NCBI RefSeq assembly: GCF_030646925.1
Contig: NZ_JAUSKL010000047.1
Coordinates: 1 to 55,942 of the forward strand
Length of the DNA stretch: 55,942 nt
Source of the DNA: Candidatus Binatus sp.
GTDB lineage: Bacteria; Desulfobacterota; Binatia; Binatales; Binataceae
Direction of reading: 5' to 3'
In this document: in pieces, positions 42,169-47,743 of the stretch
Layout: each line of letters begins with the position of its first letter
Numbering within the stretch: the stretch's first letter is position 1
Translations under genes and position numbers: made by a program
The notes under the pieces: model-generated
The model's database searches: none
What the model was told of the DNA's origin: nothing
What the model saw: only the letters and a program-made list of their open reading frames with translations

Positions 42169-42213
42169 TTGACAAGCGCGGGGGGATTAACGATATTGAG
42201 AATTATTCTCAAT
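42169..42213 (+). promoter_or_regulatory. Sigma-70 promoter with overlapping Fur box
   Basis: TTGACA (42169-42174) and GATATT (42192-42197) are 17 bp apart. A perfect 19-bp palindrome, ATTGAGAAT-T-ATTCTCAAT, lies at 42195-42213, on the -10 and start site. It matches the 7-1-7 Fur consensus (TGAtAATnATTaTCA) in form. Binding of Fe-Fur there would block the promoter of the outer-membrane protein gene that follows. Confidence 0.8.
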
Positions 42214-42243
42214 TACGAATTGCCAGCCGGGTCGAAAAACAGA

Positions 42244-43104
42244 ATGCCCTCAATCGTGCGTGCTCCAACGATGAAATGGCCGCTGCTTATCGCGGCGATG
42301 CTGATCCTGACCGCTGCCCGCAATGCCGCGGCGCAGGTCGACCCGTGGGAGTTCGAAGTTTACCCGTATCGGACGCTCGGTCGCGGGATGGTCGAGCTCG
42401 AGACCGACAACGCGGTCGTCGCCAACGGCCACAGCCAGCCCGATAACGGCACCGCGCCGGGTGCGACGAAGAGCCAGGACTATTGGTACAACCAGTACGA
42501 GCTGACGTATGGGCTGACGGATCGAATCGAGGCAGCGGCCTACGTCAATGTCGGATTGGGCTCCGGCCAGGGACTCAAATACGCCGGCTCGAAGTATCGC
42601 TTGCGCGGCAGGTTCTTCGACGAAGGCGTGCTGCCGGTGAATCTCGGCTGGTACATCGAGCTCGAATGGCATCAATTGCAATTCGACGAGAGCGAGCTCG
42701 AGCTGGAACTGCGCCCGATCATCGAGAAGGATATCGGCCGCTTCTCGTTCGTCGCCAATCCCAAGTTCGAGAAACCAATTTTTACCGGCCCCGAAAAAAA
42801 CAAGGGCTTCGAGTTCGGCTACGCCTGCGGCGCCTACTATCGCTGGATGCGGCGGATTTCTCCCGGCGTCGAATTTTACGGCGGAATCGGGCATATCGAC
42901 GATAGCGATCCGATCGCCGAGCAGCAGCACTACATCTTTCCGGTGGTGTGGGGCGAGTTGCCGCGCGGAATCGAGTACAGCGTCGGTCCGGGCTTCGGAT
43001 TGACGCCGGGCTCCGATCACGTGCTGATCAAAATCAACTTCGCGCTCGAGCGCTTCGTCGGCGCGCTATTCGGACCCCCGGCGGAGAACGGATGGTTCTT
43101 CTAG
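42244..43104 (+). CDS. Putative Fur-regulated outer-membrane beta-barrel protein
   Basis: A 286-residue exported protein. The signal peptide (MKWPLLIAAMLILTAARNAAAQ) cleaves after AAA. The mature part has alternating aromatic strands and turn residues (FEVYPYRTLG, YNQYELTYGLTDRIEAAAYV, FEFGYACGAYYRWM, FYGGIGHIDD) and ends in aromatic residues (GWFF), as barrels do. Function is unknown. Its promoter carries a Fur box, so a role in iron-limited growth is likely. An ATG at 42271 is an equally good start. No TonB plug domain, so not a siderophore receptor. Confidence 0.65.
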   Translation: MPSIVRAPTMKWPLLIAAMLILTAARNAAAQVDPWEFEVYPYRTLGRGMVELETDNAVVANGHSQPDNGTAPGATKSQDYWYNQYELTYGLTDRIEAAAYVNVGLGSGQGLKYAGSKYRLRGRFFDEGVLPVNLGWYIELEWHQLQFDESELELELRPIIEKDIGRFSFVANPKFEKPIFTGPEKNKGFEFGYACGAYYRWMRRISPGVEFYGGIGHIDDSDPIAEQQHYIFPVVWGELPRGIEYSVGPGFGLTPGSDHVLIKINFALERFVGALFGPPAENGWFF

Positions 43105-45179: not shown

Positions 45180-46160
45180 GTGCCGACTGCCGATCGCAAC
45201 CCAGGTGTAAACAGGACAAAGCCAGATCGCTGGAAGGCCGATATTCTTCGTTCGGTCGATATGTACAATGATTGGTTTATAAAGTTCGCTCCCTCCGCGT
45301 ACCGCAAAACACGAATCAAGACAACCGAGGACGTTGAATCGACGCTGGCGAAAACGGCAAACCTGACGGATGTCAGCCCGGCCGTGCTAAGGCGGGAACC
45401 TGGTGTGCTCCCGACATTGCGTATGGCGACCTGCCCGCCACTAGCGGTCGACCGGTTGATCGGCCTCGCAGGGATTTCACGAAACTTGGTCGGCTGTATG
45501 GAGAGAGGCACGATTCCGCAACGCATGAACGCCACGTTGCTTGAGAGAGATCTCGATCGGATTGGCAGCATTATTGAACGAATGGCCGATCCGGACATTT
45601 TTGTGTGGCTTGGCCGACGTGGTGCCGCAAGCGAACCTGAGATACATCGTGCGGCGACCATCGTCGCTGATCGCCTGTGCGGAGCCGTCGCCAATCCGAT
45701 CATCCGCAATGCGCAAGAGAAACGTCAGCTTGCGGCGATTGGCGCGTGGCTACAGATGCGCGGCTACCGGGCTTTACCTCCAAAGATTATGTTTGACGCG
45801 ATGCCGCCTGGGACATTCGGCTTCCGCCTGAACGTACCTGTGAAGCGGCAAGGCCCCGAGGGAACGAAAACGATCAACATCCCGGTCGACACCGTCGTCA
45901 TGCCGAAGAGGGGCAAGGCCGGTGACCTGCCGCTTCTAATCGAGGCTAAATCGGCGGGCGACTTCACTAACGTGAACAAGCGGCGCAAGGAAGAGGCGGC
46001 CAAAATGACTCAACTGCGAGTCACCTACGGTGCGAAGGTTCGCTTCATCCTGTTCCTGTGTGGATATTTCGATAGCGGTTATCTTGGATACGAGGCGGCA
46101 GAAGGCATTGATTGGGTGTGGGAACATCGGATCGATGAGCTCGCAGAGTTCGGGTTGTAA
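45180..46160 (+). CDS. XamI-type restriction endonuclease
   Basis: A 326-residue protein that I recognise as the RE_XamI family: DRWKADILRSVDMYNDWFIK near the N-terminus and a PD-(D/E)XK-like core late in the chain (VDTVVMPKRGK...LLIEAKSAGDFTNVNKRRKE, with E-x-K as the catalytic pair). XamI cuts GTCGAC (known for the enzyme; not proven for this homologue). The gene itself contains two GTCGAC sites (45447, 45885). It starts at GTG and is followed after 2 bp by the methyltransferase. This pair is probably horizontally acquired. Confidence 0.8.
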   Translation: MPTADRNPGVNRTKPDRWKADILRSVDMYNDWFIKFAPSAYRKTRIKTTEDVESTLAKTANLTDVSPAVLRREPGVLPTLRMATCPPLAVDRLIGLAGISRNLVGCMERGTIPQRMNATLLERDLDRIGSIIERMADPDIFVWLGRRGAASEPEIHRAATIVADRLCGAVANPIIRNAQEKRQLAAIGAWLQMRGYRALPPKIMFDAMPPGTFGFRLNVPVKRQGPEGTKTINIPVDTVVMPKRGKAGDLPLLIEAKSAGDFTNVNKRRKEEAAKMTQLRVTYGAKVRFILFLCGYFDSGYLGYEAAEGIDWVWEHRIDELAEFGL

Positions 46161-46162
46161 GA

Positions 46163-47743
46163 ATGGACGCTCTGACTGCAATCGAAGCACGCCGAGTCGC
46201 CCTCCAACACGATCTCGACGGCCGCAAAACGCAGAAGGAACGCAACCGCCTCGGCCAGTTCGCGACGCCGACGACACTTGCTTCTGATGTTCTGACACAC
46301 GCGCGCACGTTACTGCCGGAAGATGCGAACGTGAGGTTCCTAGATCCCGCATTTGGCACGGGATCCTTTTACGCGGCGCTCACGCGCTACTTCCCGGCCG
46401 AACGGCTCCAGAAGGCAACCGGAATCGAGATTGATCCGCACTACGGTATTGCGGCGCAAGAGCTATGGCGCAATCACGCCCTCGAGATCGAGATCGGCGA
46501 TTTCACCGCCATGAAGCCGCCCGCGCCGCGGGAACGCTTCAACCTCGTGGTATGCAACCCCCCTTACGTTCGGCATCACCACATGGGAGCGAGTGAAAAG
46601 GGCCGCCTGCAAGCCGCTACGACAGCCGCGTGCGGCGTGCGCATGGGAGGCCTGGCTGGTCTGTATTGCTATTTTCTGGGCCTCGCGCATGCGTGGTTGG
46701 CAGACGACGGAATTGCAGGATGGCTGGTGCCCAGCGAGTTCATGGACGTTAACTATGGCGGTCCGGTGAAACGCTATCTCCTGCATGAAGTCGAGTTGTT
46801 GCGGATTCACCGATTCGATCCAAACGAGTTGCAATTTGGGGATGCGCTTGTATCTTCGGCGGTGGTGTGGTTTCGCAAGCGGCGGCCGCAGGCACGGCAC
46901 GACGTGGAATTTAGTTACGGGGGGACGCTCTCGCATCCGATCCACTCCCGGCTTGTGTCAGTCACGGCGCTACAAAATCTGCGGAAATGGACGGGCTTAG
47001 CGGCGGGGGGACTGAAGGAGACAACCGAAGGGCTTCGGCTCACCGATTTCTTCTCGATCAAGCGCGGCCTCGCCACGGGGAACAATCGGTTTTTTATTTT
47101 GTCGCGAGCCGAGATCGAGTCGCGCAATCTACCTCGTGAATTTTTCAAGCCGATTTTACCGGGACCGCGCTATCTTCCCGCAGACGTGATCGAGGCAGAG
47201 GCAGACGGGACACCCAAGGTTGAACGGCAACAATTCATCCTCGATTGTCGGCTGCCGGAAGATCAGGTCCGTGCGCGCTTTCCGAGCCTCTGGGCCTATC
47301 TGAAAACAGGCAAGCCAAAAGTGTCCGACACCTATTTGTGCAGCCGTCGAAGTCCCTGGTATTCGCAGGAAAACCGGCCGCCTGCGCCGTTCGTTTGCAC
47401 GTACATGGGCCGCGGCATCGCCAAGCGGGAGAAACCTTTTCGATTCATCCTCAACCGTTCACAGGCGACGGCGGCAAATGTCTATCTGATGCTGTATCCG
47501 ATTCCGGCGCTGGCAAAAGCGATCGAGCGCGTCCCGGAGCTGGCGCGGCGGGTATGGGAGTTCCTAGATTCAATCCCGCCCGAAGTCCTTCTAGGTGAAG
47601 GTCGGGTCTATGGAGGCGGACTCTACAAGATGGAACCGAAAGAGCTCGCTAACGTACCGGCGGACGCTATATCTGCGCTCTTGCCTGCGAGCGACCTGCG
47701 ACCTGCAAAGCAACGTGAGATGTTCCCGGAACGGGCCGCGTAA
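46163..47743 (+). CDS. Adenine-specific DNA methyltransferase of the XamI-type system
   Basis: A 526-residue gamma-class N6-adenine methyltransferase. After the LGQFATPTTLASDVLTHA head come the SAM site FLDPAFGTGSFYAAL and the catalytic NPPYVRHHHMGASEK. The large C-terminal target-recognition part (FFSIKRGLATGNNRFFILSR and so on) resembles Eco57I/SalI-type enzymes. It should protect the host at the cognate site of the adjacent endonuclease. Its length is normal and the frame is intact, so the system looks functional. Confidence 0.88.
   Translation: MDALTAIEARRVALQHDLDGRKTQKERNRLGQFATPTTLASDVLTHARTLLPEDANVRFLDPAFGTGSFYAALTRYFPAERLQKATGIEIDPHYGIAAQELWRNHALEIEIGDFTAMKPPAPRERFNLVVCNPPYVRHHHMGASEKGRLQAATTAACGVRMGGLAGLYCYFLGLAHAWLADDGIAGWLVPSEFMDVNYGGPVKRYLLHEVELLRIHRFDPNELQFGDALVSSAVVWFRKRRPQARHDVEFSYGGTLSHPIHSRLVSVTALQNLRKWTGLAAGGLKETTEGLRLTDFFSIKRGLATGNNRFFILSRAEIESRNLPREFFKPILPGPRYLPADVIEAEADGTPKVERQQFILDCRLPEDQVRARFPSLWAYLKTGKPKVSDTYLCSRRSPWYSQENRPPAPFVCTYMGRGIAKREKPFRFILNRSQATAANVYLMLYPIPALAKAIERVPELARRVWEFLDSIPPEVLLGEGRVYGGGLYKMEPKELANVPADAISALLPASDLRPAKQREMFPERAA

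Follow-up and report, generated by a model that had tools for sequence, protein, structure and literature searches.

A stretch of 55,942 nucleotides from Candidatus Binatus sp. (assembly GCF_030646925.1, contig NZ_JAUSKL010000047.1, positions 1 to 55,942 of the forward strand; hereafter the window) carries a gene at 42244-43104 on the forward strand that encodes a predicted outer-membrane beta-barrel and lies behind a perfect Fur box. The reading that we favor is that this protein is probably a plug-less, Fur-repressed outer-membrane iron channel belonging to an FTR1-type importer of elemental iron. Regulation of the gene and partnership of its product with a cupredoxin and the FTR1 permease are well supported; transport is what we infer from them.

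The Fur box occupies positions 42195-42213 of the forward strand and is a perfect 9-1-9 palindrome of 19 bp, ATTGAGAAT-T-ATTCTCAAT (in full, ATTGAGAATTATTCTCAAT). It is the single match in the window to the pattern ATTGAGAATNATTCTCAAT when up to three mismatches are allowed, and 100 dinucleotide shuffles yielded none. The 15-base core alone, with three mismatches allowed, was found once against 1.41 occurrences expected and is unremarkable; the exact site is remarkable. A promoter scan of the same strand places a -35 hexamer TTGACA at 42169-42174 and, after a 17-base spacer, a -10 hexamer GATATT at 42192-42197 (score 10/12). One promoter of this class was found against 0.9 expected per 3.3 kb, and the promoter is plausible, not proven. 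The final three bases of the -10 hexamer lie within the box, which extends across the likely transcription start site. An earlier note, made from the letters of this DNA, had described the palindrome as lying over the -10 element of this promoter, which we confirm; it had also started the open reading frame at TTG 42169. That triplet opens the -35 hexamer and therefore cannot be the start codon of a transcript made from this promoter, and we correct the start to ATG 42244 (286 codons plus stop) or, alternatively, ATG 42271, the frame ending at 43104 in either case. The gene has orthologues, in which the box is conserved as well.

In order to determine what else is placed behind this box, we searched the 4.58-Mb Binatus genome (98% complete) for the core TGAGAATNATTCTCA. 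The exact core is present at three places genome-wide, which correspond to the barrel gene, the gene of an FTR1 permease (PF03239; contig C65) and a gene pair encoding a cupredoxin (PF13473) and a Haem_bd protein (PF14376; contig C33). With up to two mismatches, the core is found at 15 places, versus 2 for a reversed control pattern; the sole one-mismatch core (contig C105) precedes a multicopper oxidase gene, and the eleven two-mismatch boxes were left out of gene assignment. A scan of 41 genomes of the family recovered 44 exact cores in 28 genomes and none for the reversed control. Assigned to genes by comparing core positions with the positions of barrel, FTR1 and other matches, 20 belong to FTR1 and 16 to the barrel gene or the operon that contains it, with one at a cupredoxin-Haem_bd pair and seven at other genes. 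Of the last group, three lie ahead of Plug-containing TonB receptors and one ahead of a multicopper oxidase; the rest lie at a CarboxypepD_reg protein cut by the contig end, an efflux-protein/NicO region and a frame without a Pfam match. A literature search for the string TGAGAATNATTCTCA gave no match. Taken from sequence, regulation of the barrel gene by Fur is very probable.

Two further observations concern the same box. Fur-like boxes lie ahead of multicopper oxidase genes (L004, 1501-1515; L172, 2186-2200), which recalls the Fet3/Ftr1 pairing. TonB receptors with a CarboxypepD_reg domain stand behind an exact Fur core in the relatives G221, G343 and G347 (L174, L175 and L176).

A profile of the barrel has matches in 48 of the 148 genomes of the class, and a phylum-wide draw found it in 7 of 297 genomes, all seven inside the class. 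The nearest homologues are in records labeled as Proteobacteria or Deltaproteobacteria metagenome-assembled genomes, with one labeled Candidatus Binataceae. We defined orthologue places by E <= 1e-70 and counted 42 of 43, leaving out as a separate orthologue a 147-residue fragment with which a contig opens (G335:C308); the box was counted at 41, the place in G324 being without upstream sequence. Allowing up to four mismatches, the box is kept at 35 of these 41 loci, and at 28 of the 35 it is within two mismatches. Thirty dinucleotide shuffles of the same upstream sequences contained a mean of 0.17 boxes and a maximum of 2 of 41. This is the survey of homologues that the earlier note had proposed, and it found the box retained. 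A cupredoxin gene lies on the same strand, upstream and within 3 kb, at 37 of the 42 places, accompanied by Haem_bd at 27 of the 37 and by FTR1 at 6. The usual order is box-cupredoxin-Haem_bd-barrel, with the box mostly ahead of the cupredoxin gene: in the first homologue set the box was no more than 500 bases from the barrel in 2 of 17 loci, and a scan of whole loci recovered it in 15 of 17, usually before the cupredoxin. In four genomes (G350-G353) the order is cupredoxin-FTR1-barrel, and in G352, the one of the four checked by Pfam, a fur gene lies directly upstream of the operon. Other arrangements are FTR1-cupredoxin-Haem_bd-barrel (G366) and FTR1-cupredoxin-barrel (G420).

A paralogous barrel clade present in the same genomes provides a natural control. 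None of its 18 opened loci (of about 28 places, 4.9-5.7 kb each) has the box or a partner gene. Among class genomes, FTR1 is found in 44 of the 48 that encode a barrel of any kind and in 38 of the 100 that encode none (Fisher p 1.5e-10, kinship ignored). From gene order and the shared box, we consider it highly likely that the barrel is partnered with the cupredoxin and FTR1.

Several individual loci deserve mention. The Binatus genome itself has a member of the paralogous clade (L036 1477-2256, contig C24) that is 35% identical and has relatives in many genomes of the family. In G374 (L127 1513-2973) a single open frame contains the second half of FTR1, a signal-like segment and the barrel; the beginning of FTR1 is encoded in a different frame, and for this reason we do not claim a fusion protein. 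At L022 3241-4176 the sequence after the box looks by eye like the Haem_bd N-terminus and runs in frame into the barrel, so that the operon appears shortened with box and barrel still together. A record labeled Opitutaceae (L027) has a cupredoxin-barrel arrangement whose nearest box-like site has five mismatches (AATGAGAGTGATACCCATT); the record may reflect transfer or misbinning.

The partner proteins have recognizable relatives in iron uptake. The cupredoxin profile matches FtrB (PDB 8vuk) with E 7.6e-23. According to the available text on the FtrB crystal structure, the metal ligands are E84, E86, E93 and D119, and the copper residues are D118 and H121 (PMC11966278). Residues E84, E86, E93 and D119 align with the cupredoxin motifs EFESFxLNRE and DDF, and the copper residues likewise fall on the second motif, which reads DDFH in the set. 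A single CxxCH motif is present in all five Haem_bd proteins inspected, which makes them candidates for mono-haem c-type cytochromes. The FTR1 protein of the Binatus genome (L003, C65) carries two REGxE motifs, REGME and REGAE. At E <= 0.001, the same genome encodes one TonB plug protein, located beside a gene that from its frame we read as cobinamide-kinase-like (cobalamin-type), and gives no match for FeoB_C, M75, P19 (PF10634) or DyP.

The barrel protein begins with a predicted signal peptide, MKWPLLIAAMLILTAARNAAA (42244-42333, forward strand), with cleavage by eye likely after NAAA and before QVDP; the mature N-terminus QVDPWEFE is present in 17 of 17 homologues. Searches of Pfam (E<=1), NCBIfam and PHROG gave no family match, Plug included, which bears out the earlier note's description of a barrel that has no TonB plug. 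Its further suggestion of an undescribed iron-starvation factor gains support from the box that the gene has in common with FTR1 and the cupredoxin, and from the iron-uptake neighbors in relatives. The barrel domain DUF5777, the top Pfam match among 18 homologues, matches 2 of them (best E 0.013) and does not match the window protein. An AlphaFold2 model built on 18 sequences predicts that the mature protein (256 residues, 42334-43101) forms a 12-stranded barrel (predicted local distance difference test 78.9; predicted template modeling score 0.73). We also considered a TonB-dependent receptor, which would have 22 strands and a Plug domain; it is ruled out by the lack of a Plug match and the 12 strands of the model. 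In structure comparison, OmpG (VIA Z 15.2), FapF (14.7) and the COG4313 channel 4rl8 (14.5) are tied, and at 9-13% identity these matches indicate a mid-size barrel only. A sequence search of PDB with the barrel returned nothing below E 0.57, and a remote relation to the COG4313/SphA-type channel is possible.

The side of the barrel predicted to face the lumen is rich in conserved glutamate. We split each strand by parity and took the more polar side as the lumen side. Glutamates E21, E23, E56, E66, E109, E111, E123, E125, E146 and E180 lie on this side and do not vary wherever a homologue covers the position (the L033 homologue is truncated); R89 and R91 would also face the lumen. Over 65 positions of the inferred lumen side there is a mean of 18.0 acidic and 6.5 basic residues, compared with 0.2 and 2.4 over 67 positions of the opposite side; the excess of charge arises partly by construction, which weakens it as an argument for a channel, and the informative features are the balance of acids to bases and the invariance. 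Both would be expected for a cation path.

The observations are the box and its retention in orthologues, the occurrence of the same box at FTR1 and the cupredoxin, clustering in relatives, FtrB homology, the barrel model and the conserved acidic positions. From these we infer that Fur binds the box, which ion moves and in which direction, and the path of electrons. When iron is plentiful, Fe-Fur would occupy the palindrome at 42195-42213, over the -10 element and start site, and the gene would be off. When iron is low, the barrel would be made together with the EfeO/FtrB-type cupredoxin and the putative mono-haem c-type Haem_bd protein (C33) and with FTR1 (C65), each of these partner loci standing behind its own exact Fur core. 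Iron, probably as Fe(II), would then pass through the plug-less, acid-lined, 12-stranded barrel and be bound and oxidized by the cupredoxin, the cytochrome probably serving as electron acceptor, and FTR1 would transfer the iron across the inner membrane. Whether these proteins form a complete trans-envelope relay, with the barrel as a dedicated TonB-independent outer-membrane iron channel followed by a cupredoxin ferroxidase, cytochrome c and FTR1, is about an even call. The presence of one TonB plug protein and the lack of a FeoB_C match make it possible that the route through barrel and FTR1 may be the main iron entry of the Binatus genome.

The family extends beyond the class. A tblastn search with the divergent barrel of G374 identified 13 plasmid records, from Hydrogenophaga (2), Pseudoalteromonas (10) and Alteromonas (1), and comparison of the profiles of the two barrel sets, the second of which includes the bridging G374 sequence, gave a probability of 96.5% (E 7.9e-10, 164 columns). 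On the Hydrogenophaga plasmid FTR1 lies directly before the barrel homologue, which has an internal stop. We opened six of the 11 Alteromonadales records, five annotated and one unannotated. The five annotated records list an ATP-binding/GHKL protein, a cupredoxin, a permease ('iron transporter' or 'FTR1 family') and then the barrel, with overlapping frames. We read the ATP-binding/GHKL protein as a histidine kinase, and a response regulator is listed in four of the five. In the Alteromonadales cupredoxins the DD is replaced by GE.

A number of observations weigh against the assignment of the barrel to FTR1-dependent iron uptake. No Fur-like site was seen at the Hydrogenophaga locus (best 6-7 mismatches) or at five Alteromonadales cupredoxin-permease-barrel loci (best 5-6 mismatches), and the two Alteromonadales permeases tested have neither a Pfam FTR1 match nor REGxE; a tie to iron therefore need not hold across the entire barrel family. 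Regulation in this branch may differ, and the metal that it handles may be another one. FTR1 relatives are present in 917 plasmid records and barrel relatives in 13. Six FTR1 regions opened among 40 of the 917 records (Azospirillum, Rhodanobacter, two Comamonadaceae, Sphingorhabdus and Cupriavidus) have no barrel-sized hypothetical protein among their annotated genes, with short ones (76-135 codons) in three, indicating that FTR1 frequently occurs without the barrel; five of the six FTR1 proteins are long (about 614-653 codons), and one is labeled cytochrome c/FTR1. Within the class, the statistic for co-occurrence of FTR1 and barrel takes no account of phylogeny, FTR1 was not found in 3 of 41 orthologue genomes (G318, G345 and G174; G345 is 53% complete), and the G174 barrel has no box, partner or FTR1 match. 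The conserved histidine of FtrB (H121) is a serine in the cupredoxin of the Binatus genome, and the confidence of the barrel model is medium. Finally, the barrel gene stands by itself at the Binatus locus, where its link to FTR1 and the cupredoxin is the common box only. Its upstream neighbor, on the same strand, encodes a CorA transporter, and the gene that follows, on the opposite strand, a radical SAM protein; the barrel gene is therefore probably transcribed alone, as its own transcript.

The best surviving alternative, which we regard as unlikely, is that the barrel is made under Fur control when iron is short and carries something else, such as an organic chelate or manganese, cobalt or copper. 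No metal porin is among the proteins that its fold matches (OmpG, FapF, the COG4313 channel 4rl8 and KdgM), the Hydrogenophaga copy lies near TMEM165/GDT1 and dmeF genes, and the Alteromonadales branch described above combines the absence of a Fur box with a permease unmatched by Pfam FTR1. Against this, its immediate partners within the class are an FtrB-like cupredoxin bearing the iron-site motif and FTR1. Somewhat less likely again, the barrel could act as an outer-membrane scaffold holding cytochrome c and the cupredoxin close to the surface, where electrons and not iron would be moved. Barrels that hold cytochromes are known, of the MtrB-like kind, and such a role would suit a Haem_bd partner with a mono-haem CxxCH motif and a cupredoxin of redox type. 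However, 10 of the 37 operons with both cupredoxin and barrel gave no Haem_bd match, smaller sets consisting of cupredoxin-FTR1-barrel and FTR1-barrel exist, 12 strands are few for threading a cytochrome, and the predicted lumen side is acidic.

The remaining two alternatives concern the box itself. It is very unlikely that a different member of the Fur family, PerR or Zur, binds the palindrome and makes the gene respond to peroxide or zinc. The Binatus genome does encode two Fur-family proteins, and the one on C62 (L017) scores best against PerR models; the other, on C30 (L016), scores best against Fur models, and both are below the curated cut-offs. The same box stands ahead of FTR1 and, among the relatives, ahead of TonB receptor genes and a multicopper oxidase gene, and the G352 operon has a Fur-family gene directly ahead of it, all of which argues for Fur. 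A chance palindrome before an ordinary porin can be dismissed: a promoter-like site of this class would turn up about once per 3.3 kb by chance, but shuffled sequences do not approach the 35 of 41 orthologue loci with the box.

Two features elsewhere in the window are recorded here. A restriction-modification pair lies at 45180-47743, with a XamI-type restriction endonuclease (PF09572, E 5e-116) first and an Eco57I-like N6 methylase after it. Between 28001 and 34000 the AT skew is 0.20-0.26 across 6 kb, the window maximum in a 2-kb profile.

A plug-less iron channel working with FTR1 can be compared with several known systems. FtrABCD/FtrABC of Bordetella, Brucella and Burkholderia shares with the Binatus set an FTR1-type permease (REGxE) and an FtrB-type cupredoxin. 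FtrA/P19 (PF10634) is unmatched in the Binatus genome, whereas the Binatus set includes two further components, an outer-membrane barrel and a Haem_bd cytochrome; in Burkholderia, ferrous iron is described in the available text as crossing the outer membrane via porins (PMC5681537). EfeUOB shares the FTR1/EfeU permease and an EfeO-like cupredoxin domain, but its M75 domain and DyP peroxidase are unmatched in the Binatus genome and the EfeU model scores far below its cut-off (75/255 bits). The P19/FetM-type system (C. jejuni 1649-1656) likewise combines an FTR1 permease with a periplasmic iron protein; in the system described here, the cluster includes a barrel. The available text on C. jejuni describes the FTR1/P19 cluster without an outer-membrane receptor and draws an unidentified one (PMC6083913). 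The COG4313 channel 4rl8, FapF and OmpG are likewise mid-size barrels, without a sequence-family match. Reviews, as far as their available text goes, let unchelated or ferrous iron reach the periplasm by diffusion through porins (PMC7762939, PMC5681537). The literature on FTR1, EfeUOB, FtrABCD, FeoE and Binatota, mostly represented by titles and the openings of abstracts, contained no description of the barrel, and in these partial sources we found no protein assigned to the outer-membrane step of FTR1-type importers. A Fur-boxed barrel encoded in the same operons is a testable candidate for that step. Relatives of the family occur in named Alteromonadales and in Hydrogenophaga as well, and the present analysis offers a likely function for plasmid genes annotated as hypothetical. 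The available text on Acidithiobacillus reports FeoP, an OprB-like porin with feoABC and a Fur box, and, for Leptospirillum, an FTR1-cupredoxin pair (PMC2631029). FTR1 is combined with a cupredoxin there as in the Binatus set, with no barrel mentioned alongside the pair in that text. FeoP differs in that it serves Feo and belongs to the OprB family, whereas the Binatus barrel matches no Pfam family and its genome has no FeoB_C match. As far as it is described there, FeoP is nevertheless the nearest precedent in concept, being likewise a Fur-boxed, porin-like protein tied to an importer of elemental iron.
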